Below are positions 12,327 to 63,894 of a stretch of 64,000 nucleotides of DNA, piece by piece. Both the position numbers and the translations under genes were made by a program. The notes under the pieces are model-generated. The model made no database searches, was not told where the DNA came from, and worked only from the letters and a program-made list of their open reading frames with translations. The stretch's first letter is position 1. Every line of letters begins with the position of its first letter. The stretch is from Beroe forskalii (Eukaryota; Ctenophora; Nuda; Beroida; Beroidae): positions 248,001 through 312,000 of the forward strand of contig WFMF01000001.1 in the NCBI GenBank assembly GCA_011033025.1, in the 5' to 3' direction.

Positions 12327-15300
12327 GTAATCTCATTTACTATTACTTACGCATTAGAAAATATTGAATTTCTCACAGCTTATTTCTTAGTTTCGTATTA
12401 GGGAATTTGTGAAATGATACCTGAAGAAGTCATGTATCATGTAACGCAGATTTCTTGACAGATGTAACGCAGAACGTGTCTCATGAGGAGTTCAAGGTGG
12501 ATACAGAGGTTATTCAGCAAAAGAAGAATGAGTGTACTCCGCCAGGCTTGCTTTGCACCTGCGATACGCCTACCGAAAGGAGAAACCCGCCCAAGATCTT
12601 CTTCTGTACTCGGACACATCGCCAGATTGCGCAAATCATCAGGGAACTCAATAAAACGGAGTTTAAAAAGGTTTGGAAATTGCATCGTGTTTTGTCGAAA
12701 ATTTAGTTCCATGTTTTCATTTATTTAGTTCCATGTTATTGCAGGAAATTGTGGAAAGTGGCACGGTCGCTAATAAATGTGTTGCAGTTGTAACGCGCCA
12801 CGACAATCTGCTGAATGTTTTCGCACACAGCCGAACACATGATACGCGCGCGCCTGCTGTTTTATTCCCGCGTGGTAATATCCATTTCATTGAAGAATGG
12901 TGATGTGAAAGTTGAGACAGACAGCTCTAAAGTTTAATTTGCTGTTCAGGTTCGGATGTCAATCTTATCGAGCCGAGAGCACTCCTGTATCAACCCTAAA
13001 GTGGAGAAGGAGGCAAACAAGAATGATAAGTGTAGAGAGCTCTGTGAGCAAAGTTAGTAGTAGTCTACCGACATTGTTCTTAGATTTAGTGGATTTTCCT
13101 GTTCCCAATCGCGTTTTTGTTTTTACAAAAGGCATTGAGAAAAGGTTAGCAGAGATCGTGTTTTGTGGGGGTTGTGTGTATACTACTTTTTTGATTGTTA
13201 AATCTGAAATAGGTAATTTGTGGGACCAAATTTGGTCCAATATAGTCGTATGTGTATGTCCTTTCCAGTCATTTTCAAGCATCCAACTGCTCCTTTATAA
13301 TATCACTGAATGTCAGCGCCAATATAGCTTGGTAGTGGCATTTAGCCTGTGTGTACTGCAGCTAGATTACAGTTATTCCCTTTTGAAAAATGGATTCTGT
13401 CCATTCCTAATTTTCAACTTCACGAATTTTAAAAATCTTGAATGTCTTCATTTTCCGAAATTTTTCAATGATAAAAGCATTGAATGAATGTTTCGATTTT
13501 CTTGGAAATTCTCATCAAATTTTGTCTTTTGATTGGGTTTCAATCAAATTAGCATGACTTTTCAATGAGCAATGAGCAATAGATTGATGATCCGATCAAT
13601 GATGATTGACCTAGTACTTTACGAAAGCTGAGGAAAGTAAGAGATGAAAAAATTTGTCCCAGCATCTCATAAATGTACGAAATCTGCATCTTCAATCTTG
13701 CTATTAATCCTCTTTTTATCTTTAAGTTGGCACACATCCTGAAATCACAAAGCTCGACGCCCTGAAGAACATTGCATTTGGTTGAATATTTACTCAACAG
13801 TCGCCATGAGTATTGAGCAATCCTCGATCAAGTGAGCTCTGGCCTCTGACTGTGGTATTCGTAAAACATTCAATCAAACTGCAGAACTTTTAAGGACTGA
13901 AAATATTTCGTATTTCGTATGAAAGAATTATTTTCATCAATAGAAACGTTCGGATAATGGCACGATATGGGAACACGGTCGTCAAAAACTCAAAAGGAAA
14001 CAACCAGAATGACGTACGCGCGCAACAGAACATGGCAGGTGTTCATTTGCGCGCAGTAAAATGCAATGCGACTTGTGATCACGTACGACGTTTATCGTTT
14101 CATGGAATTAAAGCGCTCGCCGAGGTTGCCAGAAAAAGAGCACCATTATTGTTTTCAGTCTATACACAAATGGAATAGGTCCGATTCAATGTGGATTATT
14201 GCGATGTGACTCTTGATAGATAAAGAGCAAGCGTTTTATCGTCAACTCATCCTGTCAGTAAGCGAGACGGACAATGGCTCGTTTTTTAATGACGGCGTGT
14301 TTTAATACCAGCCCCGGGGAACAGGAAATGAAGCGCCTGCATACGGGAAGAACGGGCACAAGAAATGTGCCGGCAGGCGCAATTCTTGTTTGATTATGGA
14401 GGGGGGAGTTCACCACTCATATTTCGGAAAACACGAATTTGGGATATGAGTTGTCCAGGACGTGTACCAGCTGACCAACATTTGACAGTGGTCTGTGGTC
14501 CCGAGTCCATCCAAAGATCCAACATCATATCTCAAATTCGTGTTTCCCAAAATATGAACGGTGGAACCCCCGCCCCCCCTCCAAAATATGAACGGTGGAA
14601 CCCCCCTCCTAAATATGAACAGTGAGACCCCTCTCCCCTCCTAAAGGAGTTCACGTATTTCCAACAGAGAAGTGCCAGTACAGAACGAACGTGAATGCGC
14701 TAAACAGTGCAAAGCACCTTGAGAGGGCTGGTATCACCCGCGCCTGGGACATTGAAGATCTCTGCAGGGTTGGGAGAAGGGTGACGGCTTGCCCCTACTT
14801 CGCCTCGGTAATGATCTTTATTTTCAGCTGTAGATCAGGCCTGTATTTAAGGGGAGGGTCGTGGGGGCTGCGGCCCCCTCGGAAAAATGGTAACATCCCA
14901 AAATTTTGGTATGAAGAAACTGTTCTGTAGTTATGAAGAAACTATGATCTTTTGCGTGTGTAAACGAACGTGTGAATGATAGACTTGATATATTTCGACC
15001 CATATTTTGCTGTTAGGTTCATTTCTTTATTGTAAAATTAGCAGTCTAAAACACCCTATTTTACAAATATTTCCCGGGGCCCCCTTGAAGCTGCTGGTGC
15101 TGCACCCCACTTGCTCACTTTGCAGGGCCCTACCCGGAAACAATCCTGCCTACGGGCCTGCTGTAGATTGCTGTAATTATAAAATGCAGGGATAATTATC
15201 ACTATTATAATATACAATTTCCTGTATTTGGCCCAAAAATTTAGCAGAAATTAGTGCCAAATTGGCTCAAAGTATCAGGGGTGAACCTCCCCCAAGAAAA

Positions 15301-18300
15301 AATCCAACGGGTTTTCTCGTATAGTTATATGCTTGTTTCGGCTTATTCTTTACAGTAGCTGTAAACCAGTTTACCTTAGATCAGCATTTCCATGAGTTTT
15401 CTTCTGTCACAGGTGGAGATGGTACGGAGTGCCGAGATCATATTTGCCCCTTACAACTACATATTGGATCCTCTCATCGTGTCTCAAAGAGAGCTGTCCT
15501 TGTCAGACAATGTAAGTTTAGAGGGGATCTGCAGAGTTGGCTGACAAGATCACTGCTTTGCTTAGTTCGGACTAATACACTCAGCTTTATGTCAGTAACG
15601 TGATAGATTAATCCTAAGCTAAAAGTTTCTTATCACTGCGGTGATCGATGTAGTAGAATTTTCAGAAAAAGATCCCTATATTCAATTATTTTCAAAATTT
15701 TATCGAAAAGTGTATGAGGTTTCAATTTGAATTCCTGTTAGTGTTAGTTTGAACCCTTTTTTATTTTAGTTTTTGAATTTGTCTGGGGGATATTTTATGC
15801 AAAAAGCTTCAGAGTTTTCGAATTTGTTTGGGTCACAACATCCATATTTTAGGGTCACAATTCGCAAGTTATGTTTGACGAGGGTCACAACATCAGTTAT
15901 ATTTGACGAGGGTCACAACAGGTAGTTATATTTGACGAGGGTCACAACATCGCAGGTAGTTATATTTGACGAGGGTCACAACATCGCAGGTAGTTATATT
16001 TGACGAGGGTCACAACATCGCAGGTAGTTATAGCATTTGACGAGGGTCACAACATCGGTAGTTATATTTGACGAGGGTCACAACATCGCAGGTAGTTGTA
16101 TTTGACGAGGGTCACAACATCGCAGGTAGTTATATTTGACGAGGGTCACAACATCACAGGTAGTTATATTTGACGAGGGTCACACCATCGTAGGTAGTTA
16201 TATTTGACGAGGGTCACAACATCGCAGGTAGTTATATTTGACGAGGGTCAACATCGCAGGTAGTTATATCGCAGGTAGTTAAATCGCAGGTATTTGACGA
16301 GGGTCACAACATCGCAGGTAGTTATATTTGACGAGGGTCACAACATCGCAGGTAGTTATATTTGACGAGGGTCACAACATCGCAGGTAGTTATATTTGAC
16401 GAGGGTCACACAACATCGCAGGTAGTTATTTGACGAGGGTCACAACATCGCAGGTAGTTATATTTTATTTGACGAGGGTCACAACATCGCAGGTAGTTAT
16501 ATTTGACGAGGGTCACAACATCGCAGGTAGTTATATTTGACGAGGGTCACAACATCGCAGGTAGTTATATTTGACGAGGGTCACAACATCGCAGGTAGTT
16601 ATATTTGACGAGGGTCACAACATCGCAGGTAGTTATATTTGACGAGGGTCACAACATCGCAGGTAGTTATATTTGACGAGGTCACACGTAGTTATATTTG
16701 ACGAGGTCACAACATCGGGTAGTTATATTTGACGAGGTCACAACATCGCAGGTAGTTATATTTGACGAGGGTCACAACATCGCAGGTTATATTTGACGAG
16801 GGTCACAACATCGCAGGTAGTTATATTTGACGAGGGTCACAACATCGCAGGTAGTTATATTTGACGAGGGTCACAACATCGCAGGTAGTTATATTTGACG
16901 AGGGTCACAACATCGCAGGTAGTTATATTTGACGAGGGTCAACATCGCAGGTAGTTATATTTGACGAGGGTCACAACATCGCAGGTAGTTATATTTGACG
17001 AGGGTCACAACATCGCAGGTAGTTATATTTGACGAGGGTCACAACATCGCAGGTAGTTATATTTGACGAGGGTCACAACATCGCAGGTAGTTATATTTGA
17101 CGAGGGTCACAACATCGCAGGTGGTTATATTTGACGAGGGTCACAGGTGGTTATATTTAACATCGCAGGAAGTTATATTTGACGAGGGTCACAACATCGC
17201 AGGTAGTTATATTTGACGAGGGTCACAACATCGCAGGTAGTTATATTTGACGATGGTCACAACATCGCAGGTAGTTATATTTGACGAGGGTCACAACATC
17301 GCAGGTAGTTATATTTGACGAGGGTCACAACATCGCAGGAAGTTATATTTGACGAGGGTCACAACATCGCAGGTAGTTATATTTGACGAGGGTCACAACA
17401 TCGCAGGTGGTTATATTTGACGAGGGTCACAACATCGCAGGTAGTTATATTTGACGAGGGTCACAACATCGCAGGTAGTTATATTTGACGAGGGTCACAA
17501 CATCGCAGGTGGTTATATTTGACGAGGGTCACAACATCGCAGGAAGTTATATTTGACGAGGGTCACAACATCGCAGGAAGTTATATTTGACGAGGGTCAC
17601 AACATCGCAGGTAGTTATATTTGACGAGGGTCACAACATCGCAGGTAGTTATATTTGACGAGGGTCACAACATCGCAGGTAGTTATATTTGACGAGGGTC
17701 ACAACATCGCAGGTAGTTATATTTGACGAGGGTCACAACATCGCAGGTAGTTATATTTGACGAGGGTCACAACATCGCAGGTAGTTATATTTGACGAGGG
17801 TCACAACATCGCAGGTGGTTATATTTGACGAGGGTCACTACATCGCAGGTAGTTATATTTGACGAGGGTCACAACATCGCAGGTTGTTATATTTGACGAG
17901 GGTCACAACATCGCAGGTAGTTATATTTGACGAGGGTCACAACATCGAGGACGTGTGTCGGTCCTCCGCAGGGTTCGAAGCCACGCAGTTCCAGCTGGGA
18001 GACTGTATTGTGAACCTGGAGGACGTTATCAAGAAGGACCACGAGTGTTACGTTACCAACCGACAATACGTACCAGAGGGGTGGGTACTCCTTGCAATTA
18101 ACTCATATAATTAACTATATTAACCCATATAATTAACTATATTAACACATATAATTAACTATATTAACCCATATAGTTAACTATATTAACCCATATAGTT
18201 AACTATATTAACCCATACAATTAACAATATTAGCTAATTTTGAGTGTTCTTGTAGGCGTGCAATAATGTACGCTAATCTAACCCGTAGTGGTATTGTTGC

Positions 18301-21300
18301 TGTTATTGCACGAGGCATCGCCAAGTGCTATTTACAGCATTCATCACACGAGGCGAAGCCGAGTTTGATTAGAGCACTATTTTCACGAGGGGAAAAACAC
18401 AGTACTATATCCGACTTTGATAAAGCTAATGAAGGTAGTCTTTATGGAAGAGAGGCGGAAGAGCTACAATCTCACTTTTGTGACCTATAAAGTTAAAGTC
18501 TAACTGCCGTCTGTGTTTCATGATGAATTCAATCGTATGAAATCTATTTAATCTAACACTGCATGAAGTTTAAATATTCTGTACTCAAGTACATATCCAC
18601 TTTCATTCGTTTCAAAGATATTAATTAACCATAAATCATGTGGACATGCTATATCGTTATACCAATTCCCGCCCTGGCCAGGGCGGTAACCCCCCGCGGT
18701 AATAAAAAAGACTGGCCAGGGTATATATTAGAGGAACGAGTGTCACAGGGTGATATAATATAGATATAATATATAGCATGATAATTTGGGGCAAATTTGG
18801 AAAGCCGAGATGTCAAGAACGGAAAATGGTAGAGCCATGATCGAGGTCAGGTTTTGTTGATCTAAGATGGGAAAATGTTATAGGCTATAAGAGAAGTTCT
18901 GGTGACGTCATTTTCACGTCACTATGACGTCATCAACTTGGCGAAATTTTATTGCTTTTTTAGCGAGAATAGGCCATCTTTATGCGGATTTTTCACCAAG
19001 AAGGAATGGAGATAGCTCAAAAATGTTGAAAAATCGTTGGTTGGAAATTTAAAGAGCTTTCAGAAAATCATACGGATCATTGGGCTATCTCGATTTTTCA
19101 TCGAGATATACGCGATTTTCTAAGGTACGGTGAAAAATCAATTTCAAAATTTTAGGAGAAAAACTTAAACGAGTGATATGTCAAGAACTGCAGCTTATTT
19201 TGAGATGATACCGGTCAAAGTATGTTGTACTAAGGCGGAATTGTCTTATAGGCTATATGGGAAGTTGGTTTGAGCTTATTTGGGTGCTGTGATGACGTCA
19301 TCAAAATCGCGTAAAACCACTAAAATAGCGTATTTTGCGATAGAACGCTATTTTGCGCTACTTTGGACATCTTTAACTCAAACAGTTTTCATCGGATTAT
19401 GTTTTACATTGATCTGCTGCTTTTAGACCTTGAGATTTAGCTATAAAACGAGTTTCAGGGCGATCGGTCCTAGATTGTTGTCCTGCGAGGCTTCTGGATA
19501 TGGAGCTGCAAAATGCTTGAAATTACGTTTATGACGAAAATTTGTTATGTAGTCCTATTCTGTGATACGATGGTCAACTGATAATGGTTTCTCCATTTCT
19601 CATAGTGAATAGGCATGGGAAATATACGATGGATTAGTGAAGCACGTGAGTTCACGCGGACGTTTTGTAGAAATTAGGGGAGTCGAAGAAATGGATATTT
19701 ACACGGGATTTTCGACTTGATTACGTTGAAATGAGTTCAAATACGACTGATGCGCATGAAATTAGATCCAGTTGCTATATTTCAGCACGTGAGTACACAC
19801 GGACGATTTGTAGAAATTAGGGGATTTGAAGAAATTGATATTCACACAGGATTTTCGACTTGGTTACGTTGAACTGAGTTCAAATACGACTAATGCAGGT
19901 GAAATTAGATCTGGTTGCTATATTTCAGCACGTGAGTTCACGTAGACGATTTGTAGAAATTAAGAAATATATCAATTCTAGTAATTCCAAGTTAGAATAA
20001 CGTAGTTTGGGACTTCGTCTGGGTAAGTTGTGTGGTTTACACTTGCGTGTGGGCTAGTATCGTGGGTTCGGGCTACGTGAGGGCAAGTTACGTGGGTCCA
20101 AACTGCCTTTGGGCAAGTAACATGGGTTCAAACTACATACATCTGTCAAGATATCACCACCAAAACCGTTGGACGGTTGGTCTAGTAACCCCCCGCGGGT
20201 TTGGATGTGACAACGGAACCTGAAAAGAGACAAAATGGGCTGATCACATCCAAACCAGCGGGGGGTTACTAGACCAACCGTCCAACGGTTTTGGTGGTTT
20301 ATCCAATAGAATAGAATGATGATCATCAGTTGTCATTGGAGAATACAGCCATAAGCCAGATGATATTTCAGGTATACAACCATAAGCCAGCTGATATTTC
20401 AGGTATACAACCATAAGCCAGATGATATTTCAGGTATACAGCCATAAGCCAGATGATATTTCAGGTACACAACCATAAGCCAGATGATATTTCAGGTACA
20501 CAACCATAAGCCAGCTGATATTTCAGGTATACAACCTTAAGCCAGATGATATTTCAGGTATACAGCCATAAGCCAGATGATATTTCAGGTACACAACCAT
20601 AAGCCAGATGACATTTCAGGTACACAACCATAAGCCAGATGATATTTCAGGTACACAACCATAAGCCAGCTGATATTTCAGGTACACAACCATAAGCCAG
20701 ATGATATTTCAGGTACACAACCATAAGCCAGCTGATATTTCAGGTATACAACCTTAAGCCAGATGATATTTCAGGTACCGGTCGACGCAGGTACAGTTGC
20801 GTAACCTTAAGGAGTTCTACTCCAAGCTGTTGGAGTGGACACTGAGCTTCAAGGGGAAGCTGAGGGAGGACTACTTCGAGCACTCCCACTACTCCCTACT
20901 GGGACCAGACTGTCTCAGGCAACTAGTGGTAAAACACATCGTAAAGACCTTAGACTTTGGGTGTTCCTTACGGTGTGAATAATAATGTCGAGCCCGAAGG
21001 GACGAGCCATTATTACGAATCATATTACGTACTGATATTGCAATTAAATCACTATAAGTGCAATTATATGTTAGAGGCGTAAGACAAACACGCAGACAAT
21101 ATAATTGCTTGCAAATAGTACTACCCCTTAAATCGCTCTAAACCTGTCGTGAGACTACTATATTTTAATTAGATTCGTTTCGAAAACTCCTCGTTTTTTC
21201 TATTTTCGTCTGTCTCCGATACACACTTTCCCGTCACAGGGACTGGGGATAACGAGTGACTACGTGGAGCAAATCAGTGGCTGGCTTGGGATTGTCTCCT

Positions 21301-21458: not shown

Positions 21459-23309
21459 GTGGGTGGAATAATAATAATGTCCTTTTTCAAGTGTTTCACA
21501 TTTGTGTTGAGTCAGATGGAGAGGTTGTATTGTGAATTATCATTCAGGGAATTATATCAGGGCATTCGGAAATGATTGTCACTACAGGCATATTATAATG
21601 TTGCATATAATGACACAAACAATGAACATGTCAACATTTCAACATATTTGAGATCAATGGTCCCTACCAGACTGAATTGCAACTCTTCGGTGTTTAGTTA
21701 TATTGAGTAGGTCGTCCAGCTTGCCCTTGATAGTTGTCAGATGCTGCGCTGTATAGCTAATCTAACATCTCTGCCATTAAAATTGTTGTTATTAAGGTCT
21801 GACTTCACTAATCAGGACAAATTCTGGCCGTTGAGGTCCAAAAGTTCACATTTCCCGATTTCACAGCCTTTAACCCGTCAATAATTCCGAAACCAAGTTA
21901 CCCTCTGTTTTGACGTTTTTTTGAAAATCATTAAAACCCCTTTAGCAGGGGCCAACCTCTGTTTGTTGTGCGGGTTTTTAAAAAGGGAAAACAAAAAATC
22001 CTCCCCGCAAATTTTCTGTTTCTTCGGGGAAAACCGTGACAATTTTTCCGAATAAGGCGCGAACGTTTTAATCTGGCTTTCAAAATCTCTAGACTCATCT
22101 TTTAAACTTCAAACATCATTTCCAGATCAAGCAATCCCCTCTAATGGTGCAGGACCCCCAGTCTCATAAAACCTCCAGGACACTGGGGATAACGTTTTTC
22201 GTCTTGGACCTTGGTTTTTCAAACCCCCTGCCCCCCTTACTTTTAAGGGAATTTCTCGGGATTCCCCCAAAAAGTTTCCTCTATTTTTATTTTTTGTTTT
22301 CCTCAGGGGCGCCTGGACAAAGTGGCAAACGGATCTATGCCCTAAAACTAATACAGAACCGAAGCCTTATCATCTTATCCCTCAATGTATAGCCCAACTC
22401 ACTCCTAAGATTTTAAGTCACGAATTTTTAACAGCCCTTCAATTTAGAATTTATCATAATTTTAGAGAATTTGAGCATTTTCCACGGATGGACCAAGTCA
22501 GACTTTAGTTTTGACAACCAACAGCCAATGATTATAAAATTTGTGATTTTGAAGATTTGTGATAAGGGACGGACGGAAGGACGGACGGACGGACGGACGG
22601 AGGGAGGGACATTTTCGCGACTGATATTATAAAGGGCACTTTCCAGAAATTACAGTAGTTGTATTGCAAATCTGGACCTGCTATGCACATATCCTATTTC
22701 TCACCTTCCCAAACCACGATCTCTGCTAACCCTTCATTTGCCTTTTGTATTCACAAAAGGCCGATGGGGAGGGAAAAATCCCATGATTTCGCACCCCATC
22801 ATCATACGATAGTTAGAATGGGTAAGTGTATTTGTTTAAAATCCCTTATTTTCGAACTGCAAAGCAAGACAGCATGTTTCACAGATCTTGTGCTATGTGA
22901 ATACCTACTGAATACTGGGATATTGTCTGTGTGACGTCATTACCACGTTTTAGAATGGTGAATTATAGGAAAGAGTAAACGTCCATTTTGTGCTTACATT
23001 TTACCCGCGACATGTTACTGTGGCTAATGATAAATCGAGCATACACTGTACATACAGTATGCTCTGCAAAATAGCATGTATAGATAATATACATCATGTA
23101 TTGCGATAATGGTCCAAAATATGTTACATAACAGTAGTGTAATGTACATTCTAGATATTCAAAGTTTTGGAATTTTGCCACTGCAAATTACAAAATCCTG
23201 AGTTCTGTCTCTGGCAAATTGTGACTTTACAATCCAGTATCCACAAACTACCCAAACTATAGTAAACTACTTCGCAGAAGTCTATACCTCTGAAATGTTT
23301 ATATTTCAG
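21459..23309. other. Junction zone between BRIP1-like and HECTD1 exons
   Basis: No clear exon. From about 21880 to 22330 the text has unusual homopolymer runs (ttttttt, aaaaagggaaaac, cccccc) and looks like poor consensus. An open block near 22144-22210 (SHKTSRTLGITFFVLDLGFS) faintly resembles the BRIP1 segment after exon k. A ggac microsatellite lies at 22562-22607. The remainder is unremarkable. Confidence 0.4.
22562..22607 (+). repeat. GGAC tetranucleotide microsatellite
   Basis: About ten copies of ggac/ggag. Simple sequence, intergenic or intronic. Confidence 0.9.
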
Positions 23310-24971
23310 TTTTATAATGGACGGTAAGCTGTCTACGATCTACAGTGCTGGATGTTTGGATTCCAGTGGAACCGATACTTCAGGTCAGTGAGTTGACACT
23401 TGGCAGTTACATGCTGTGAGTTGACAGCCAAGTGCTGTCAGTCAACAGCAAAATGCTGTGAGTCAACAGCCGAATGTTTTGAGTCAACAGCCGAATGATT
23501 TTATTCGACAGCTCAATACTGTGATTTAAAAGCATTATGCTGTGAGCCATGGGTCGGTTGCTGATGGTTTTATGACTAAATTAGATGATGGTAACCTTAT
23601 CCCCAGAACTCACCTCCGTACTTTTTGCCTATAATTCAGAAATTCACTATCTTCAAAGCTTGGGGTTTTTCACTCTCTCACTCTTTCAGACTCGAGATGT
23701 GAGTTTTTGGAGAAGCTCCAACGAGCCAAGTCTTTGGTGGCTTCAGACAAGCCTTCCCAGCCCATCCTCTCCACCCCAGGACATGTCATAGCGCTCGACA
23801 AGTGGCGACTCAAGTGCCGGTAAGTGCCGACATGTGGCGACTCAAGTGCCGACATGTGGCGACTCAAGTGCCGGTTAGTGCCGACATGTGGCGACTCAAG
23901 TGCCGGTTAGTGCCGACATGTGGCGACTCAAGTGCCGGTAATTGCTGATAAGTGGCGCCTCAAGTACCGGTAAGTGCAAATAAGTAGTGGCGACTCAAGT
24001 GCTGGTTAGTGCAAATAAGCGGCGATTTAAGTGCCGGTTAGTGCAAATAAGTAGTGGCGACTCAAGTGCTGGTTAGTGCAAATAAGCGGCGACTTAAGTG
24101 CCGGTTAGTGCTGATAAGTGCCGATATGTGGCGACTCAAGTGCCAGTTTATGCCGGGATAAGGCTCAAAAGGTTGTGGCAAAAAACATGAAGCTGGATTG
24201 GGAGGAACTGTTGTATGTTTTGAGTGGTGCCAGGGGGAACTGTTGTCAATGTAGACTGTAGAGTGGTGTCAGGGAACTGTAGTCAATGTAGAGTGTTGTC
24301 AGGGAATTGTTGTCCACGTATAGTGGTGTCAGGGAAACTGTTGTAAATGTAGAGTGGTGTCAGGGAAACATTTGTCAATGTAGAATGGTGTCAGGGAAAC
24401 TGCTGTCAATGTAAAGTGGTGTCAGGGAAACTGCTGTCAATGTAGAGTGGTGTCAGGGGAACTGCTGTCAATGTAGAGTGGTGTCAGGGGAACTGCTGTC
24501 AATGTAGAGTGGTGTCAGGGGAACTGCTGTCAATGTAGAGTGGTGTCAGGGAACTGCTGTCAATGTAGAGTGGTGTCAGGGAACTGCTGTCAATGTAGAG
24601 TGGTGTCAGGGGAACTGCTGTCAATGTTGATTGGTGTCAGGGAAGCTGTTGTAGATATAGAGTGGTGTCAGGGATACTGTTGTCAATGTAGAGTGGTGTC
24701 AGGGAAACTGTTTTTAATGTAGAGTGGTGTCAGGGGAGCTGTTGTCAATGTTGAGTGGTGTCAGGGCAACTGTTGTCAATCTTAAGTGGTGTCAGGGGAA
24801 ACTGTTGTCAATGTTCACACTTTCACACTCTTCCCCTTAGCCGTGAAGGAGAACTAGCAATAGACAACAGCGAGGGCCAGCAAAGCACTATCCTAAGGGA
24901 AGACTTACCTGGGTTTATATTCGAATCTAACAAGGGAGCTACGCATTCCTTCAACGCAGAGTTAACTCTTG
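23310..24971 (+). CDS. HECTD1: HECTD1 exons 1-3 (as seen)
   Basis: Exons 23310-23383, 23690-23819 and 24841-24971 join in phases 1 and 2. They encode [14 protein letters not shown], then [14 protein letters not shown] and QPILSTPG, then [20 protein letters not shown] and [17 protein letters not shown]. All are near-identical in order to HECTD1 just after its ankyrin region. Exon 1 needs two bases from an upstream exon; none is present, and the BRIP1-like exon k ends in a different phase. Confidence 0.9.
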
Positions 24972-60900: not shown

Positions 60901-63894
60901 TTGATAGTGCACTTCAAATTTACATTTGTCACCAGTTGACACTACTTTTTTTCCTGCAGTTGACACCACCTTTATTTACCACTCTTGTTATAGCAATTGT
61001 TGTACTTCATCACAGTTGTCACCTTTCATCTCCAGTTCACACCTCATTTTCGTTGCAGCTGACACCACTTTTTGAGTGACTCCGCTATTATTCTCTGCAG
61101 TTGACACCACTTTTTCAGTGACACCACTGAGTCCAGACCCCGGACTGTAGCAACGCGACGTTTAGATGATTTGGGCGAATACAGGATAGGGCGACTAAAA
61201 CATGAAAGGTGGGTGGAGAAAGCAACCCCGGCTTTTTAAATCTGTAAATATTTGGTTTATTTCACTATAACTCCAAGAATTTCGGAGTTGTTTTCGCATA
61301 GTTGTTTCAGCGTGCGCTTGTAATACTAATATGCAGGTCCTCAACACCCACGTATCAACCCTAAAAAGAACCTTAAAATCCCTTGAAAACCCCTTTTAAA
61401 CCCTAAAACCCCTAAAAACCTCATATCTCAGGTGTACGATTCCCGGGGAGAGGATTTCCTGGACTGGGCTCTGCAGGTCCTCAACACTCACGCTCATAAT
61501 AAGAGTGTGCTAGAGATAGAGTTCAAGGGAGAGGAGGGAACAGGTACAAAGATATTGGGTGACGGTGGTGTCTCGAATCTTTCGCGCGCGGCGTAGTACG
61601 GCGCACGTTGTGCTTTTTGCTGCGGGCAAATTTGCTTTTTTGGATCAGTAGCTTTTACCAAAGTTAACAAATTAGTTCACCAATTTTTGTCTAGTAAAAT
61701 GGTATCTTTACGTCTACTAAAATAGAGAATTGTGAAATAAGCAATTCTACTCAAGATACCGGCCGAGCCGTGCGAGAGAATTTGAATTTTGAAATGTAAT
61801 GCCACTTACACACTATCCTCCGTCAGGGATTGGTCCCACTCTGGAGTTCTACTCGCTGGTAGCAGCTGAGCTACAGAGGAAGGAGTTAGGAATGTGGATC
61901 TGTGATGACGAACCTCCTCTCAACGATAACGAGGTGAGGAGTCTTTCTGAAAAAGTTTTCAAAAACTTGGTAATTGGTTGTGGTTGTCTGCGGTGGTTTT
62001 TATAGCGTAAAACCCGCGATACGGTAACTTCAAAACGTACATAAGCGATGCAACAAAAAGTGATTCTCAGGTCATTTCCAATCTCTTAACCTTGGACAAA
62101 TAAACGAAGAATTCCCGAAGATTTTACAACCTAAATCCCCTCTAGGTTGACCTGGGTCAAGGCCCTAAGCCGCGGGACTACTACGTCAAGGCGGGCTCTG
62201 ATGGCCTCTTCCCTGCCCCCTACCCTCAGGATTCCCCCAAACTCAGCAAGATCTGCAACCTTTTCCATCTCCTGGGGATGTTCCTTGCCAAGAGCCTGCA
62301 GGTGAGTGTTATAGACAACTATTTTGAAGTGTTTCTAAAAACCGGGAAAAGCCGTCTTGAATTTAAGAAAATGCCGTCAGTCACTCAGAAAATATTTCCT
62401 TGTGTTTGACAAGTCTTCCCCTGCAGGATCAACGTCTGGTGGATCTCCCACTCTCCCTGCCCTTCTTTAAGATGTTGTGTCGGGGCGTGGATCAGGTGAC
62501 AGACGTTATGTCTGAGGACGAGGGGAGTGATAGCGAGGAGATATCAGAGTCATTCCTCCTAAAATCAGGTGAGGAAATCTCATTCTTTCTAAAATCAGGT
62601 GAGGAAATCTCATTCCTTTTAAAATCAGGTGAGGAGATATTAGAGTCATTCCTCCTAAAATCAGGTGAGGAGATATCAGAGTCATTCCTCCTAAAACCAG
62701 ATGAGGAGATCTCATTCCTCCTAAAATCAGGTGAGGAGATCTCATTCCTCCTAAAACCAGATGAGGAGATCTCATTCCTCCTAAAACCAGATGAGGAGAT
62801 CTCATTCCTCCTAAAATCAGGTGAGGAGATCTCATTCCTCCTAAAATCAGGTGAGGAGATCTCAGAGTCATTCCTCCTAAAATCAGGTGAGGAGATCTCA
62901 TTCCTCCTAAAATCAGGTGAGGAGATCTCAGAGTCATTCCTCCTAAAATCTAAAATCAGGTGAGGAGATCTCATTCCTCCTAAAATCAGGTGAGGAGATC
63001 TCAGAGTCATTCCTTCTAAAATCAGGTGAGGAGATCTCATTCCTCCTAAAATCAGGTGAGGAGATCTCAGAGTCATTCCTTCTAAAATCAGGTGAGGAGA
63101 TCTCATTCTTTCTCAAATCAGGTGAGGAGATATCAGAGTCATTCCTCCTAAAATCAGGTGAGGAGATATCAGAGTCATTCCTCCTAAAATCAGGTGAGGA
63201 GATCTCATTCCTCCTAAAATCAGGTGAGGAGATCTCAGAGTCATTCCTCCTAAAATCAGGTAAATCTGTTATTCATCAGTTTCCTGGACATTCGTGTAAA
63301 AAATTTCCCCGTGATCATGGTGGCTTCTGCAATATTAGCGCATTTCTTGAAACGTCTTAGTGTAGTGAACAACTTTCTATCTCAAACTAATGCTACTTTT
63401 TCGATCTTAAATTAAGGTTTGATTTCAGAAAGTTTGAGTTCTCTGACAGAAGGAGAGCTGAGATTGAGGTGTGACAGTGACGCAGCTTCCGACATATCGT
63501 CCGTTCAGGTATTACGATTTTTCCGGGTTATCAAGATGTTATGCAACATCAATTAATCATGCTGCAGATCCTGGACTTTTTCGCATTTTGAAACATTTAC
63601 AACTTTTACTTCTCAAAGTTGACTCAAGACAAGACGTGGTTATGCAGCAGGAATTACTGAATTAGATTCATCCTCTAATTTCTTTTCCACACTTTTCTTA
63701 GGTATATTATGATTCCCACCAACTCACAGATCTCTTCCCTCCCCAGGGCACTACGAGCTGTGTAGACGAGTCTGAGTCCTACTCCCGTAAACCCCTCACT
63801 ATCGAGGATATCGCTATTGATCACGTGGCAGCTGTCACACCCGATGTGAGGACAGACAGACAGGAGCCGGACAGACAGCAGGCGTGGTTCTCTG
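23310..63894 (+). CDS. HECTD1: HECTD1 E3 ubiquitin ligase, 39 exons, open at both ends
   Basis: Thirty-nine exons with matching phases follow the order of vertebrate HECTD1 from the segment [12 protein letters not shown] to the HECT N-lobe (QQAWFS). Family knowledge: HECTD1 is a large HECT-type E3 that passes ubiquitin from E2 through a C-lobe cysteine to substrates in signalling and morphogenesis. Visible here are the galactose-binding-like SUN/Sad1-UNC domain (exons 10-15), acidic Ser-rich disordered exons, the [11 protein letters not shown] block and the HECT N-lobe. The N-terminal armadillo/ankyrin part is not in the window, the MIB/HERC2 domain appears absent, and the catalytic Cys lies beyond the right edge. 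Two exons each need one extra base to keep frame. Three protease genes sit in its introns. Confidence 0.9.
23384..23560 (+). repeat. Degenerate CTGTGAGTCAACAGC repeat
   Basis: Roughly seven copies of a 22-24-base unit with a ctgtgagtcaacagc core, starting right at the exon 1 donor. The copies are too diverged to tell whether the donor itself seeded them. Confidence 0.7.
23820..24150 (+). repeat. Array derived from the end of HECTD1 exon 2 and its donor
   Basis: About 11 copies of a roughly 32-base unit with core gtggcgactcaagtgccggt. The exon's last codons read aagtggcgactcaagtgccg followed by gtaagt, so each unit replays the exon end and a GT donor (gtaagt or gttagt). Copies drift towards 24150. 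Confidence 0.9.
24222..24815 (+). repeat. 30-bp minisatellite (tcagggaactgctgtcaatg...)
   Basis: About 20 copies of a 30-base unit containing tcagggaactgctgtcaatg and agagtggtg, in the intron between HECTD1 exons 2 and 3. It has no obvious relation to the flanking exon ends. Confidence 0.9.
25188..26812 (-). mobile_element. 1.6-kb non-autonomous element, copy 2 (inverted)
   Basis: Reverse-complement counterpart of 18663-20299, starting with the same foldback (25190-25333) and ending gccagggagggaattg. In place of the 460-base middle of copy 1 it carries a 15-bp minisatellite. A palindrome-rich insert (26540-26650, containing cgaggcgaagccgag) is specific to this copy. It lies only about 30 bp upstream of HECTD1 exon 4. 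Confidence 0.8.
25862..26122 (+). repeat. 15-bp minisatellite (ccccgttattcggac)
   Basis: About 17 copies inside element copy 2. The unit is a multiple of three, so open frames of PPLFG or RYSDP repeats appear on all plus-strand frames; these are not considered genes. Confidence 0.95.
26842..26909 (+). CDS. HECTD1: HECTD1 exon 4
   Basis: Sixty-eight bases between acceptor gtgcag and donor CATCAG|gtttgg. Entering in phase 1 they encode [19 protein letters not shown], matching the HECTD1 segment [20 protein letters not shown]. It leaves in phase 0, which fits exon 5. Confidence 0.85.
27014..27085 (+). tRNA. tRNA-Ala (UGC anticodon)
   Basis: Full cloverleaf: acceptor GGGGATG with CATCTCC including the G3:U70 pair that marks alanine tRNAs, D arm GCTC-AGCGGTA-GAGC (A box), anticodon loop TTTGCAT in stem TGCGC/GCGCA, and T arm CGGGG-TTCGAGA-CCCCG (B box). 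No intron and no encoded CCA, with discriminator A. A T-run follows within a few bases, fitting Pol III termination. Confidence 0.95.
27295..27366 (-). tRNA. tRNA-Ala (UGC anticodon), convergent copy
   Basis: Identical tRNA sequence on the minus strand, about 210 bp away and pointing towards the first copy. Short flanks are shared (atc before the 5' end, attttt-type tract after the 3' end), so the pair probably arose by inverted duplication. It lies in the intron before HECTD1 exon 5. Confidence 0.95.
27420..28272. other. HECTD1 intron without further features
   Basis: No exon on either strand. Some CG-rich words (gcgcgaaa, tgcgcg near 27820-27880) but no recognisable element. Confidence 0.4.
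28273..29311 (+). CDS. HECTD1: HECTD1 exons 5-8
   Basis: Exons 28273-28410, 28589-28732, 28903-28989 and 29157-29311. The peptides start [42 protein letters not shown] and [12 protein letters not shown], the last continuing to [16 protein letters not shown] and LQILTKR. They match the helical middle of HECTD1 (vertebrate VLESIERLPLHLYDTPG). Exons 5-7 are phase 0; exon 8 ends in phase 2 at AAAAG|gtaaat. Confidence 0.9.
29375..29505 (+). repeat. Truncated copy of HECTD1 exon 8 with its donor
   Basis: About 120 bases of exon 8 (from gtaacctggtaactaaactg to the end), its donor and about 20 intron bases are repeated immediately downstream with almost no change. The copy lacks an AG acceptor at its left edge, so it looks like an exon fragment that cannot be spliced as an exon. 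Palindromic gttaccatggtaac words mark the breakpoint. Confidence 0.9.
29761..30014 (+). repeat. Two extra copies of HECTD1 exon 9 acceptor and exon start
   Basis: Blocks at about 29761-29852 and 29930-30014 repeat cacttcccag plus the first 70 or so bases of exon 9, before the genuine copy starting at 30087. Each copy breaks off at a gttaccatgg palindrome. Both keep a usable cag acceptor. Confidence 0.9.
30087..31368 (+). CDS. HECTD1: HECTD1 exons 9-12: start of the SUN/Sad1-UNC-like domain
   Basis: Exons 30087-30207, 30416-30555, 30847-30935 and 31205-31368 (phases 2, 0, 2, 1). They encode [20 protein letters not shown], then [13 protein letters not shown] and [16 protein letters not shown], then [14 protein letters not shown], then [20 protein letters not shown] and [17 protein letters not shown]. 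Very close to HECTD1, where this is the discoidin/SUN-like beta-sandwich. Confidence 0.95.
30700..30812. repeat. GCGCGGCGTAA foldback in HECTD1 intron 10
   Basis: Arms cgcggcgtaatcgtgcgcag and tgcacgattacgccgcgc surround an inner inverted repeat (cactggctgt / acagccactg). It belongs to a family of gcgcggcgtaa palindromes also seen near 31580, 52990, 57680 and 61580. Confidence 0.7.
31417..31482. repeat. CCAATCAG...CTGATTGG foldback
   Basis: Arms attggccaatcagcg and cgctgattggccaat flank a 25-base centre. Related foldbacks lie at 32236-32312 and around 46406-46735. Each arm carries a CCAAT box. Confidence 0.7.
31507..31640 (+). repeat. CGGCGTAAGTTTGC short tandem repeat
   Basis: Four 15-base copies of cggcgtaagtttgcg/a following a cagttcgaact word. 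It appears to be an expanded fragment of the gcgcggcgtaa foldback family. It is intronic in HECTD1. Confidence 0.75.
32476..33995 (+). CDS. Papain-family (C1A) cysteine protease with ShK domain, copy 1, two frameshifts
   Basis: Exons 32476-33178 and 33338-33995, nested in HECTD1 intron 12. Order: signal peptide ([17 protein letters not shown]), I29 propeptide with [16 protein letters not shown], mature peptidase with [10 protein letters not shown] (active Cys), NHVITLVGY (active His) and KNSWGTDWG (active Asn), ShK-type six-Cys module ending GCKRTCHTC, then a short Cys-rich tail. One inserted base near 32985 and another near 33918 break the frame; all else is conserved, so this is a young pseudogene or carries consensus errors. 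Only this copy has an intron (33179-33337). AATAAA at 34186. Confidence 0.8.
34000..34927. other. AT-rich spacer between protease copies
   Basis: Contains the 3' UTR of protease copy 1 (AATAAA at 34186-34191). No exon, no repeat of note; one gaaataaaac word near 34259 may be a second poly(A) signal. Confidence 0.4.
34928..36654 (+). CDS. Papain-family protease with ShK domain, copy 2, repeat expansion and frameshifts
   Basis: Signal peptide [18 protein letters not shown]29 region ([16 protein letters not shown]), then a 7-residue repeat [14 protein letters not shown] of 10 or more units between propeptide and mature enzyme. The mature part has [21 protein letters not shown] and KNSWGTDWG, an ShK module ([19 protein letters not shown]) and a Cys-rich tail. 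The frame changes inside the repeat (about 35420-35455) and again near 35957 by one inserted base. No intron. AATAAA at 36829. Family role: lysosomal or secreted endopeptidase. Here probably a pseudogene, unless the indels are consensus errors. Confidence 0.75.
35340..35635 (+). repeat. 21-bp coding repeat in protease copy 2
   Basis: Units of ccaacaggggattggatggg (or actatatgaga variant), 21 bases, giving [14 protein letters not shown]. One irregular stretch (35418-35455) shifts the frame. Absent from the other two protease copies. Confidence 0.9.
36829..36834 (+). terminator. Poly(A) signal of protease copy 2
   Basis: AATAAA about 175 bases after the stop codon, the first such hexamer downstream. 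Confidence 0.6.
37120..37963 (+). repeat. 19-bp GTTACCATGACAACAGTAT array
   Basis: About 44 copies of a 19-base unit ending directly before the acceptor of HECTD1 exon 13. The inner 14 bases gttaccatgacaac are an imperfect palindrome that fits the RFX X-box pattern RYYNYYATRRNRAC. Variants (gtcacc, gttgcc, gttaac) are scattered. Confidence 0.95.
37980..39072 (+). CDS. HECTD1: HECTD1 exons 13-15: end of the SUN/Sad1-UNC-like domain
   Basis: Exons 37980-38096, 38647-38719 and 38903-39072. They encode [20 protein letters not shown] and [13 protein letters not shown], then [20 protein letters not shown], then [13 protein letters not shown]. Order and residues match HECTD1. The domain is followed by [13 protein letters not shown], where vertebrate HECTD1 has RRQRRLVRSQ before its MIB/HERC2 domain. 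Confidence 0.95.
39117..40060 (+). repeat. 16-bp CTGACACCAGTTTACG array
   Basis: More than 50 copies of a 16-base unit fill the intron between HECTD1 exons 15 and 16. Near 39968 a variant reads catttacgcaggtgctcacc, a near copy of the exon 16 acceptor (catttgcaggtgctgaag). Confidence 0.95.
40093..40902 (+). CDS. HECTD1: HECTD1 exons 16-18: disordered segment in place of the MIB domain
   Basis: Exons 40093-40144, 40358-40471 and 40723-40902 (phases 0, 1, 1). [18 protein letters not shown] leads straight into Ser/Thr/Gly-rich sequence and then [20 protein letters not shown], a helical stretch. In vertebrate HECTD1 a MIB/HERC2 domain follows the first segment; no exon with its DWKW and WVDVTWD-type residues was found here. 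The exon 17 donor was placed at GACG|gtttgg to keep phase. Confidence 0.75.
41000..41940. other. HECTD1 intron 18, left part, no feature
   Basis: AT-rich intronic sequence with a G-run at 41021-41030. No exon or clear repeat found. Confidence 0.4.
41945..42045 (-). repeat. Tandem copy of the 3' end of protease copy 3
   Basis: About 95 bases starting ctcacatcaagtactctatc repeat the sequence at 42070-42165, which is the last coding part and stop of the minus-strand protease. The extra copy lies downstream of the stop. Confidence 0.9.
42075..43424 (-). CDS. Papain-family (C1A) cysteine protease with ShK domain, copy 3, intact
   Basis: An uninterrupted 449-residue ORF on the minus strand, nested in HECTD1 intron 18. 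Signal peptide about 1-17; I29 propeptide with the ERFNIN-like set E51, R55, F59, N62, V66, N70; dibasic-rich linker (SRKRS, about 120); mature enzyme from about 128 with oxyanion Q146, catalytic C152 (GSCWAF), H302 (NHAVTMVGY) and N318 (KNSWGTDWG); ShK module C378-C408 with six Cys; Cys-rich tail with four Cys. All catalytic residues are kept, so activity is likely. Role inferred: secreted or lysosomal endopeptidase, with the ShK part possibly targeting or channel-binding. It has no intron where copy 1 has one. Confidence 0.93.
   Translation of the reverse strand: MGYQTILTLLLLSVTLAKNTKYQEALQTRGELRRLYENFKTKTGTHFEGKEDRKRFKIFRDNVRLVAAQNDVEGETAEFGVNKFSFLTYEEKLRWTTGLGNITEWKEARKKQKVYRPRTSRKRSASKPPEEWFWTDKEYVTPVHDQGWCGSCWAFAATATVETNYAIETGVLKKFSEQEVLDCTFESVRVSWNPWKDGCDGGWSGFAYGYSIKNHRWGTAAGYPSYTEIDHECESDKYANGLIGARLERTEYVYETEEDHIEALQNHAISVAYYVSDRFYTYQRGIYKDSTEKCTFDVFANHAVTMVGYAPQYILVKNSWGTDWGDQGFVKFTRGYHNCGLFMWSDIPILKPTGVTDESDSDPATPYNPRHSEPSDECVDENEGCELQMCFDKSVDTYKGCRRTCHSCEVDFEAEEALLASGECGNNLIKCSDGVCRHRHICRWIEYLM
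43425..44916. other. HECTD1 intron 18, right part, protease copy 3 upstream region
   Basis: Upstream of the minus-strand protease. No exon recognised; a G-run at 43869-43879 and a C-run at 44633-44643. No clear TATA or initiator could be assigned. Confidence 0.4.
44917..46379 (+). CDS. HECTD1: HECTD1 exons 19-20: acidic, Ser-rich disordered region
   Basis: Exons 44917-45096 and 45318-46379, both phase 1. They encode [20 protein letters not shown], runs of Glu/Asp ([12 protein letters not shown]), then 354 residues rich in Ser, Thr, Glu and Pro, with poly-Ser tracts. They close with [20 protein letters not shown], which parallels the short FLDSCRASTLLAELDD motif of vertebrate HECTD1. The length is unusual for a single internal exon in this gene. 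GA-rich codons create mirror-image frames that are not genes. Confidence 0.85.
46400..46760. repeat. Cluster of CCAAT-bearing foldbacks
   Basis: Several partial copies of ccaatcagagcacgag / ctcgtgatctgattgg and ggttaatcagagcg. Related to the foldbacks at 31417 and 32236. Intronic in HECTD1. Confidence 0.6.
46857..48157 (+). CDS. HECTD1: HECTD1 exons 21-23
   Basis: Exons 46857-46959, 47577-47737 and 48069-48157 (phases 1, 2, 1, ending 0). They encode [19 protein letters not shown], then [20 protein letters not shown] and MDIEDDDD, then an almost pure Glu/Asp run ending [12 protein letters not shown]. They correspond to the acidic tract before the WDDD block of HECTD1. Confidence 0.85.
48375..48787 (+). 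CDS. HECTD1: HECTD1 exons 24-25: [11 protein letters not shown] block
   Basis: Exon 24 (48375-48518) encodes [15 protein letters not shown] and then, one frame away, the conserved [15 protein letters not shown] appears to be missing in the TTT at 48435-48437, since one more base restores both frame and exit phase. Exon 25 (48686-48787) encodes [20 protein letters not shown]. The match to vertebrate HECTD1 ([20 protein letters not shown]) is strong. Confidence 0.88.
48525..48870. repeat. GTTACCATGGTAAC palindromes near HECTD1 donors
   Basis: Perfect or near-perfect copies of the 14-base palindrome gttaccatggtaac follow the donors of exons 24 and 25 (48533-48562 and 48803-48870). The same words follow exon 8 and exon 39. 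Confidence 0.75.
48900..50223. repeat. HECTD1 intron 25: dispersed TTAAGAAACTTT and AAATTCAGG words
   Basis: From 48960 to 49380, aattaagaaacttttt recurs and forms one inverted pair (about 49315-49375). From 49430 to 49890, aaattcaggaaaatg(t/a)acgtg and its complement recur in both orientations. No exon is seen in these 1.4 kb. Confidence 0.6.
50224..50986 (+). CDS. HECTD1: HECTD1 exons 26-28
   Basis: Exons 50224-50308, 50566-50652 and 50860-50986 (phases 1, 2, 2, ending 0). They encode [20 protein letters not shown], then [20 protein letters not shown], then [20 protein letters not shown]. They match vertebrate RIWEPTYTIMYRE and VEQYLGTDELPK. An acceptor-like copy (ctcaggtatctgcc) lies at 50521, 45 bases before the used acceptor (tccaggtacctgcc). 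Confidence 0.9.
51193..52554 (+). CDS. HECTD1: HECTD1 exons 29-31
   Basis: Exons 51193-51331, 51833-51918 and 52450-52554. They encode [20 protein letters not shown] and [16 protein letters not shown], then [20 protein letters not shown], then [19 protein letters not shown] and TRLMQQ. Parallel vertebrate HWKLTGTNKSIRK, LQLLRILYIVA and ITTKILQQ. Phases 0, 1, 0. Surrounded by partial copies of their own ends. Confidence 0.9.
51385..51740 (+). repeat. Three copies of the exon 29 end and one of the exon 30 start
   Basis: gtacagcactgtgtcg, then ctgagaggacag, is repeated at about 51389, 51470 and 51590, two of the copies keeping the following gtta donor. ttgtttcaggagaagagaca occurs at 51707-51730 before the true acceptor at 51832. 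Phrases such as ctccttatatgg recur between them. Confidence 0.9.
52125..52345 (+). repeat. Two partial copies of HECTD1 exon 31
   Basis: ccatcatctgaaat...gttagatcaggaggaagag occurs at about 52127-52170 and 52283-52335 ahead of the true exon at 52450. The second copy keeps the acceptor-like cccaggacactcc. Confidence 0.85.
53081..54648 (+). mobile_element. ORF1-only retroelement copy 2 (1.57 kb, plus strand)
   Basis: Same length and structure as 3864-5431. Its first 20 bases (ttgccttttatcagttttca) are duplicated just upstream at 53061-53080. The 3' UTR contains the accccaacgtggggt hairpin and an AATAAA followed by an A-rich end. The very high identity of the two copies in unrelated surroundings implies recent mobility or recent homogenisation. 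Confidence 0.85.
53182..54252 (+). CDS. L1-type ORF1-like RNA-binding protein (356 aa), copy 2
   Basis: Intact 356-residue ORF with the same architecture as the copy at 4260-5330: coiled-coil-like N-half, RRM-like core with [12 protein letters not shown] and [10 protein letters not shown], Pro/Thr-rich basic tail. About ten substitutions separate the two, and none is a stop. No ORF2 follows. It sits in HECTD1 intron 31. Confidence 0.8.
   Translation: MYTVYWILDMEFSLEMLYDVENEVEAAFSTTFGAQWGEVNKAIVMKCDKETLSSLVLSAAKVLVKSKDILRSAAVHVEQLKKDQLQNQKTLLRLQDDVLQSRNEQVEAVQKTVKSEIRSFSDVVKQGCNEKITTKELKAAVKSAVSDDDRRKGVMVFGLEENAGDVLKDRVEEMLGVCSATGNPTVSDCYRVGAVKAGSMRPVKALFHSNEAASMVLRSASSLRGTRFSRVYISPDRTSKEREVRKGLVMQLKEKISTEPQRYHYISNGTVCTREKAAGSNPSLATVPESTPPRSTASAPVDPATEPEADTPRFNSKWPSSAYDSASRRVKLTRTWTEQAADAPLTPSLWQRVNKK
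56276..56913. mobile_element. TIR element of about 640 bp
   Basis: The left end ccttattgtaggaaattaag and the right end cttaatttcctacaatgaagg are reverse complements for about 25 bases. A second inverted pair inside each end (caataagcaccatgaaatta) extends the symmetry. No ORF. It is inserted in the satellite at 54850-60420. Confidence 0.8.
56930..57020. repeat. Two short GC hairpins
   Basis: attacacacgagggccggaggcccgagtgtgtaat and aaaaccgaggccgaaggccgaggttttt-type palindromes lie side by side. They may be a separate small foldback element. Confidence 0.6.
57628..57752. mobile_element. Small intact GCGCGGCGTAA foldback
   Basis: Starts gttcgaactgcagtt, contains gtgcgcggcgtaagtttcac, has a centre around gacatatgaataacatgtc and returns as tacgccgcgcacacaaaact, then aactgcagttgaactgc. 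About 125 bp. Confidence 0.75.
59688..59972 (+). repeat. 21-bp GTTGTTGTCACCATGACAACA array
   Basis: About 12 copies of a 21-base palindromic unit (gttgtcaccatgacaac core). All frames are open because the unit is a multiple of three (HDNSCCHH peptide). Each unit fits the X-box-like pattern. A shorter block of the same unit is at 60558-60618. Confidence 0.9.
59966..60010 (+). repeat. Copy of HECTD1 exon 32 acceptor and exon start
   Basis: taaactcctcaggttcacga and gcctctgatgttaggcacc repeat, with one change, the acceptor and first 27 bases of exon 32 (60620-60659), together with the gtcaccactg lead-in. Confidence 0.9.
60633..61208 (+). CDS. HECTD1: HECTD1 exons 32-33: entry to the HECT domain
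   Basis: Exon 32 (60633-60793) encodes [20 protein letters not shown] and [12 protein letters not shown]; exon 33 (61119-61208) encodes [19 protein letters not shown] and RLKHER. Both match vertebrate HECTD1 (WCEQLTSKCPFLIPFETR; RVGRLKHERV). At the exon 33 end, AAAG|gtgggt leaves phase 2 but exon 34 needs phase 0; one missing G, or use of the later gtggag donor (adding Trp), would reconcile them. Confidence 0.88.
60930..61118 (+). repeat. Repeated acceptor-like CAGTTGACACCAC words before exon 33
   Basis: Four or five copies of (t/c)gcag(t/c)tgacaccact in about 190 bases lead up to the acceptor used by exon 33 (tttttcag|tgacaccactg). They look like duplicates of that boundary. Confidence 0.65.
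61432..62301 (+). CDS. HECTD1: HECTD1 exons 34-36: HECT N-lobe
   Basis: Exons 61432-61543, 61827-61933 and 62146-62301. They encode [16 protein letters not shown], then [20 protein letters not shown] and MWICDDEPP, then [25 protein letters not shown] and [13 protein letters not shown]. These are the hallmark N-lobe residues of HECT ligases. Phases 1, 0, 0. The E2-binding part follows in later exons. Confidence 0.95.
62427..62568 (+). CDS. HECTD1: HECTD1 exon 37 up to its first donor
   Basis: Encodes [20 protein letters not shown] and then acidic [20 protein letters not shown]. It ends in phase 1 at the first AAATCAG|gtgagg. About 23 further identical donors follow downstream in tandem units of 30 or 36 bases. 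The frame stays open to the slip at about 62950, so later donors up to there would extend the protein in frame. The last copy ends at a different donor (AAATCAG|gtaaat, 63258). Confidence 0.85.
62569..63258 (+). repeat. 30/36-bp array replaying the exon 37 end and its 5' splice site
   Basis: About 23 units, gtgaggagatctcattcctc plus ctaaaatcag, or the longer form with agagtc. Each ends AAATCAG and begins GTGAGG, so every junction is a consensus donor. Long units match the exon end itself (gagatatcagagtcattcct). Period multiples of three keep the reading frame, except at 62945-62956 where ctaaaat is doubled. Confidence 0.95.
63429..63894 (+). CDS. HECTD1: HECTD1 exons 38-39
   Basis: Exons 63429-63508 and 63747-63894. 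They encode [20 protein letters not shown], then [20 protein letters not shown] and QAWFS. They correspond to the Ser-rich insert in the HECT N-lobe ending PPAWF in vertebrates. Exon 39 ends in phase 1 at TCTG|gtgagt; the gene continues beyond the window. Confidence 0.8.

Follow-up and report, generated by a model that had tools for sequence, protein, structure and literature searches.

Tandem repeats that lie over intron-exon boundaries have been described in lancelets under the name 'mirages', and the sections of the literature drawn on here report them for globin genes (PMC3087553) and for PGBD5, with those of Adh (Canestro et al. 2002) and troponin C cited alongside the latter (PMC3902484). 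In the globin excerpts, both 5' and 3' boundaries are affected, AG/GT is kept in many units, and RT-PCR suggests normal splicing (PMC3087553); a length that is unstable from one haplotype or cell to another is a further trait of mirages; the lancelet cases are reported, in the excerpts from both papers, without interference in splicing (PMC3087553, PMC3902484). In human genes located in segmental duplications, minisatellites at exon-intron boundaries alter splicing, according to the portion of that study used here (PMC2812944), and in the Rogers model, as outlined in the relevant part of its source, introns are gained through tandem duplication of AGGT segments (PMC4974935).

We analyzed a 64-kb stretch (64,000 nucleotides; the window) of the genome of the ctenophore Beroe forskalii, in which an intron of a helicase gene carries an array of this kind. 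The features of this intron and its flanking exons are the following, with positions counted in the window and a slash marking a splice junction.

15413..15511, + strand: exon h (VEMVRSAEIIFAPYNYILDPLIVSQRELSLSDN), phase 0, placed by its open frame, CAG/GTGG acceptor, DN/GTAAGT donor, and FANCJ match
15512..15517, + strand: 5' splice site GTAAGT of the array-bearing intron; relative P0007 resembles this locus as far as the same DN and is unlike it beyond
15749..15769, + strand: possible vestige of the ancestral polypyrimidine tract with its AG (..CCCTTTTTTATTTTAG), with 13/17 pyrimidines, 2.1 kb from the exon
15790..15866, + strand: decayed unit copies bordering the array on its left (local alignment score of 32 over 15773-15850)
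15867..17916, + strand: array, 60 copies of the 34-bp unit GTAGTTATATTTGACGAGGGTCACAACATCGCAG (31 nt of exon start plus CAG), from TRF and direct count
17917..18080, + strand: exon i (VVIFDEGHNIEDVCRSS...), the first 31 nt of which equal the unit, placed by its open frame and relatives P0001-P0006

By direct count, 60 head-to-tail 34-bp units occupied positions 15867-17916, 34 of them perfect, and the core TTTGACGAGG, with at most one substitution, was found 61 times, that is, in the 60 array units and in exon i itself. TRF reported a period of 34 in two blocks (38.7 copies, 91%, at 15867-17145 and 23.2 copies, 97%, at 17159-17947). The original prediction of a roughly 60-fold 34-bp array was therefore borne out in copy number and period, but the array is less regular than this implied, as the spacing was exactly 34 in 48 of the 60 units but 12 of the 60 differed in length, and decayed copies could be traced leftward to about 15790. 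The alignment score of this left edge was equalled by 1 of 500 shuffles; when positions 15773-15820 were tested alone, their similarity to the unit was not significant. A genome search with a two-unit query, in which counts of repeats are lower bounds, gave at least 30 matches, and every match listed fell inside the helicase-exon array. After the last unit, GTAGTTATATTTGACGAGGGTCACAACATCG followed by AGGAC marked the real start of exon i at 17917, and the array thus ended exactly in the exon, as predicted. All 31 exon-like bases of the unit were identical to the start of the adjoining exon i (31/31), a match that is not due to chance, and CAG was the sole intronic part of the unit, which corrects an earlier division into cgcag plus 30 exon bases to CAG plus 31 exon bases. 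On these results the array is a genuine boundary minisatellite, of large size and in good preservation. If it were instead an artifact of assembly or sequencing, the true locus would hold few copies. One lancelet mirage was seemingly misassembled in a draft genome, as recorded in the part of that paper used here, and the copy number in the present assembly may be wrong; an artifact made from one unit would not, however, easily yield the departures from consensus found in 26 of the 60 units together with the decayed left edge, and we regard it as quite unlikely.

The exons around the array belong to a DNA-repair helicase of the FANCJ/XPD group. The best of nine PDB sequences was the Fanconi anemia group J protein (chain 9ej9, E 5.6e-14), Pfam DEAD_2 (PF06733) was matched with an E of 4.3e-21, and a DExH box was present, exon i encoding the motif II box, DEGH. 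The predicted seeding of the array from a helicase acceptor and exon start carrying motif II codons is supported. All six relatives containing exon i (6/6) read DEGHNIEDVCRSS, and the DEGH that they have instead of DEAH is therefore a feature of the lineage and not of the array. A query of exon i with upstream unit codons returned four relatives, none additional to the known set. When joined, exons h and i gave a continuous frame, and P0001 likewise read through unbroken. A PDB search with one whole 15-kb frame returned nothing at 0.01 and was too insensitive a search.

Six first-half helicase exons lay in order on contig C1, and a Helicase_C_2 match, assigned to FANCJ by eye, was found on the 23-kb contig C1074 (C1074:13120-15322). 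In the window, the helicase exons gave way, from 23.7 kb, to exons of another gene, which we take to be HECTD1-like; a Pfam scan of some of these exons found no domain. With the second half of the FANCJ-like gene on C1074 and exons of another gene in the window, the gene is split, by assembly or by rearrangement, and the arrangement of 21465-23690 versus C1074:13120-15322 is accordingly a misjoin or a rearrangement. Because the second half is on another contig, a complete helicase may not be produced from this locus. On either side of the meeting point of the two genes lies an inverted repeat (19617-20301 and 25186-25868; 686 aligned bp, 95% identity) that contains tandem copies of a 142-143-bp unit. 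A coding minisatellite of 33-bp, ASSTPLPYNP-like repeats was also observed in the second half of the FANCJ-like gene, in its tail (L028 2033-2630).

Between 15760 and 17917 there were 113 YAG sites, and the open h-i frame was obtained from the last one only, a stop being reached within 51 codons from each of the remaining 112. The description of the copies as about 60 equivalent 3' splice sites consequently holds for their sequence but not for the reading frame, and every copy except the last is most likely ignored by the cell. A different possibility is that the array serves as a regulatory buffer, with unproductive acceptors sending a share of transcripts to decay and the copy number setting the helicase level. 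The stops that end the frame from all 112 upstream sites and the pyrimidine-rich AG persisting to the left of the array would fit such a role, which we nevertheless consider rather improbable: nothing in the analysis showed selection on copy number, and the lancelet cases, in the excerpts used, reportedly do not interfere with splicing (PMC3087553, PMC3902484).

Upstream of the acceptors of exons i and j, both of which are preceded by arrays, pyrimidines made up 7/17 and 8/17 positions, respectively, compared with 12, 12, 15, and 15 of 17 for exons h, k, l, and m and 11 for the exon starting at 62427. This contrast is weakened by the acceptor at 63429, which has no array directly before it and also had 8/17 pyrimidines. 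The segment at 15749..15769 may be the ancestral polypyrimidine tract. About 20 nt ahead of its CAG, each full unit had the sequence TTGAC, in keeping with the branch-point pattern usual in animals. RNA structure, predicted for part of the array, showed nothing unusual (z = -0.78).

It had also been proposed that cag/gta reads as a donor and that the intron could be spliced recursively. The AG/GT juxtaposition on which this proposal depends was present in most units (54 CAGGT in 15850-17947), so that each unit could be a ratchet point, CAG/GTAGTT, at which the intron is removed stepwise, and the mRNA would stay the same if whole units were lost step by step. Recursive splicing, however, relies on a functional donor at the ratchet point, according to the section of the source drawn on here (PMC8605326), and a donor role is weakly supported for GTAGTT, which has T at +5. 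The regenerated donor, AAT/GTAGTT, has no G at +5, the base that occupies this position in 6 of the 8 donors located in the window, a weak argument given that the other two, GTAATG (14808) and GTAAAA (20929), lack it as well, and in four units GAAG replaces GTAG. With such a weak donor, recursive splicing is possible but not favored, and we judge it unlikely.

Since exon i encodes conserved protein (FANCJ), it must have existed before the array. The intron also seems to be older than the array: P0005 carried 12 non-unit residues ending in Q directly ahead of VVIFDEGH, and homology to P0007 was lost right after the DN that closes exon h, with the limits that relatives P0001-P0007 are short fragments and that the upstream residues of P0005 could be coding and not intronic. 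The converse, that the array created the intron by AGGT duplication as in the Rogers model, is highly improbable. The unit does contain AG/GT, and P0001 crosses the h-i join unbroken, so some relative, or its RNA, is intronless there; however, the intron's own donor sits 362 nt ahead of the array, and, as to whether an intron was absent before the duplication, the short fragments P0005 and P0007 suggest a unit-free intron at the same place and P0001 suggests none. Most simply, the acceptor is old and the array was added late, on its intron side. Among the first 30 units, 10 had changed length, compared with 2 among the last 30 (Fisher p = 0.021) and 0 among the last 20, which, with the decayed left edge, gives the array a homogenized interior and a divergent edge. 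This polarity suggests that new copies arose or were homogenized beside the exon, which is itself held by selection.

Taken together, we give a probability of about 0.82 to the reading that this is a mirage-type boundary minisatellite, mostly neutral, which is removed with the intron while the last CAG is used. Beyond the observed anatomy, exon identity, and polarity, we infer the process of growth as follows. Tandem duplication would have taken in the acceptor CAG together with the opening 31 bases of the pre-existing exon i, leaving the copies on the intron side, and slippage, unequal exchange, or conversion would then have enlarged the array to about 60 copies, the most uniform of which lie beside the exon. 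Because the copied segment starts at the CAG, the original polypyrimidine tract would have been stranded 2 kb upstream, so that the last acceptor would work with exon-derived upstream sequence, probably the U-rich TTATATTT and the branch-point-like TTGAC about 20 nt ahead of the CAG. The array would leave with the intron, the spliceosome connecting exon h with the final CAG (17917). This site would be chosen because the real exon, with a donor downstream, lies right beside it, and on these sequence grounds the acceptor at 17917 is presumably the one used in vivo. A transcript joined to an earlier copy meets a premature stop and would probably be lost to decay. Neither a gain for the protein nor a new intron is required for such an array, which would be mostly neutral, frame-poisoned, and tolerated by splicing.

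Additional arrays at exon edges were identified in the window, and these and the exons concerned are listed below.

20345..20774, + strand: another acceptor array, in which a 31-bp unit ending ATTTCAG/GTAC occurs 14 times (TRF, frame analysis)
20775..20928, + strand: exon j (YRSTQVQLRNLKEFYSKLLEW...), from frame analysis
23690-23819: exon l
23796..24150, + strand: donor array, the end of exon l (..CTCAAGTGCCG) and a GTAAGT or GTTAGT donor, repeated into the intron (TRF)
62536..63260, + strand: donor array of 30/36-bp units, TCAG/GTGAGG, at the end of the exon starting at 62427 (TRF, frame analysis)

The better-supported donor of exon i was GTGGGT at 18081, and the better-supported acceptor of exon j (20775) was the last CAG of the second acceptor array; only 1 of the 36 YAG sites in 20300-20800 kept the frame with this donor. 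A rival donor, GTACTC at 18085, was in frame with acceptors at 20791 or 20797, both past the array. When laid by eye, P0006 fitted the 18081-20775 join without a gap; the program's alignment of P0006 used the join of the rival donor and had a gap there. Exon j is thus probably preceded by an acceptor junction array. Derivation of this array from the exon was rejected, as its 31-bp unit clearly shares just CAGGTA(C) with exon j, and no stretch of exon j was among the eight best-scoring windows in a comparison with the unit. At the donor array of exon l, read-through of the first donor led at once to a TAA. The units at 62536..63260 stayed in frame up to a length change near 62950, and 9 of the 19 CAG/GT donors of the 62427 exon were in frame with the next exon (63429). 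Both types of boundary were therefore affected (acceptor, exon i and probably exon j; donor, exon l and the 62427 exon), on the basis of our own exon calls, and up to four junction-bearing arrays were present in the 64-kb window, in two neighboring genes.

In a post hoc placement test over 12.4-25 kb, which used our own exon calls with some outer exon ends approximate and one 'intron' covering two genes, 3 of 9 arrays lay at most 4 nt from an exon versus 0.081 expected (p = 7e-5), the three touching arrays having been cut at the junction (TRF extends them into the exons) and the array at 14574-14636, which touches only via an approximate exon start, being left uncounted. Without the helicase-exon array itself, 2 of 8 touched (p = 0.0013), and for the seven arrays that remained after the short ones at 14574-14636 and 22567-22610 were left out, p was 4e-5. 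An exon-derived origin was unsupported for the array at 24257-24814, which stops 26 nt short of exon m. This array and another at 39127-40056 have different periods, and each partly aligned to the array at L029 2544-3366, as if the three belonged to one dispersed family with a core near GTGTCAG.

Several other repeats and genes were observed in the window. At 29203-29555, in the downstream gene, a 172-bp segment with an apparent short exon was tandemly duplicated (2.1 copies, 91% matches). An inverted 1.57-kb duplicate (3864-5431 and 53081-54648, 98.5% identity) had a 369-aa open frame in each copy, presumably the first ORF of a retroelement. Three papain-like cysteine protease genes were recognized by eye (32422-33925, 34886-36651, and 42078-43466), the last with an intact 463-aa frame that matched papains and cathepsins in PDB, and MGPTGDW repeats formed a coding minisatellite in a protease gene at 35339-35633. 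Two tRNA-Ala(TGC) genes with equal Rfam scores (27014-27085 and 27295-27366) were inverted and 209 bp apart.

Splice motifs in tandem were counted across the genome. CAGGTR triples spaced 10-40 nt gave 20,615 matches, versus 5,027 for RTGGAC (reversed), 10,894 for GGTCAR, and 20,540 for RACTGG; because this last, permuted control equals CAGGTR, the 6-mer excess is not specific, and it was rejected as a splice-specific signal. CAGGTRAG triples spaced 5-35 nt gave 2,159 matches versus 120 (reversed), 258, 424, 499, and 731 in five controls, or 2.95 times the highest control, and these matches are not independent loci, as 100 listed of the 2,159 sit in four arrays, one of them in the window. These counts are no more than suggestive that tandem arrays across the genome hold splice motifs in excess. 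At 22 loci outside the helicase exons of the window, several of them overlapping, TRF found a few short arrays with YAG/GT units, which count neither for nor against such an excess, exons being unannotated at these loci. One of these short arrays, acceptor-like and made of repeated TTTCAGGT, lay at L013 5595-5876, in a sampled 10-kb stretch; random sampling of the genome covered six such stretches. A 157-bp repeat in L026 was rejected as another mirage, no exon edge being visible at the repeat.

We offer only as a tentative and rather doubtful proposal that minisatellites here arise preferentially at exon-intron junctions, where duplications bearing AG/GT would be invisible in mRNA and splicing would filter in junction arrays. 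If this is true, splicing would let junction arrays grow where other exon-side arrays get removed, and mirages would be a genome-wide class of intron-lengthening element, present at numerous loci and possibly in animals other than lancelets. The rules of acceptor choice could then be tested in each array with dozens of near-identical rival sites. An intron with about 60 near-identical 3' splice sites, of which just one would yield protein, is a natural test of acceptor choice, in which branch-point distance, exon definition from the downstream donor, and decay of wrong products can be probed. The occurrence of both array types in two neighboring genes would let the birth of a minisatellite be watched, its start being observable because the seed, an exon, is still known and is kept by selection.

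Seeding of a minisatellite from a catalytic-motif exon boundary had been thought unusual; mirages in genes of lancelets (Adh, globin, troponin C, and PGBD5) were already described in the sections of the papers drawn on here (PMC3087553, PMC3902484). The array-bearing intron agrees with the anatomical definition of a mirage. Its unit spans the intron-exon boundary (the CAG and 31 nt from the start of exon i), just as lancelet units, in those sections, span an intron end and exon start or an exon end and intron start, and lancelet clusters are likewise described there as uniform within and divergent at one edge, with AG/GT often retained. The two differ in scale, since 60 copies of 34 bp are present here and 6 and 3 repeat units are given for the lancelet BflGb6 haplotypes, with units measuring 10-72 bp in Adh3 and 150-160 bp in the globins versus 34 bp here, and up to four boundary arrays in one 64-kb window are unlike the lancelet cases in the excerpts used. 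Human minisatellite units average about 30 bp, and some lie at exon-intron boundaries, as here; transcripts support repeat-driven novel introns in the human genes, according to the portion of the study cited, whereas all acceptors but one are frame-breaking at this locus, where the data are DNA only (PMC2812944). As in the Rogers model, in the part of its source used, a duplicated AG/GT provides splice sites, and unlike in that model the intron here seems to predate the array (PMC4974935). Drosophila ratchet points, as the pertinent section describes them, share the juxtaposition of an acceptor and a donor within an intron, and the present sites differ from them in being tandem copies with a weaker donor (PMC8605326). 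Boundary arrays are thus already known, and this one is a new and long example, special in its copy number, its frame-poisoned copies, the apparent loss of an ordinary pyrimidine tract, and its co-occurrence with up to three other junction arrays in the window.
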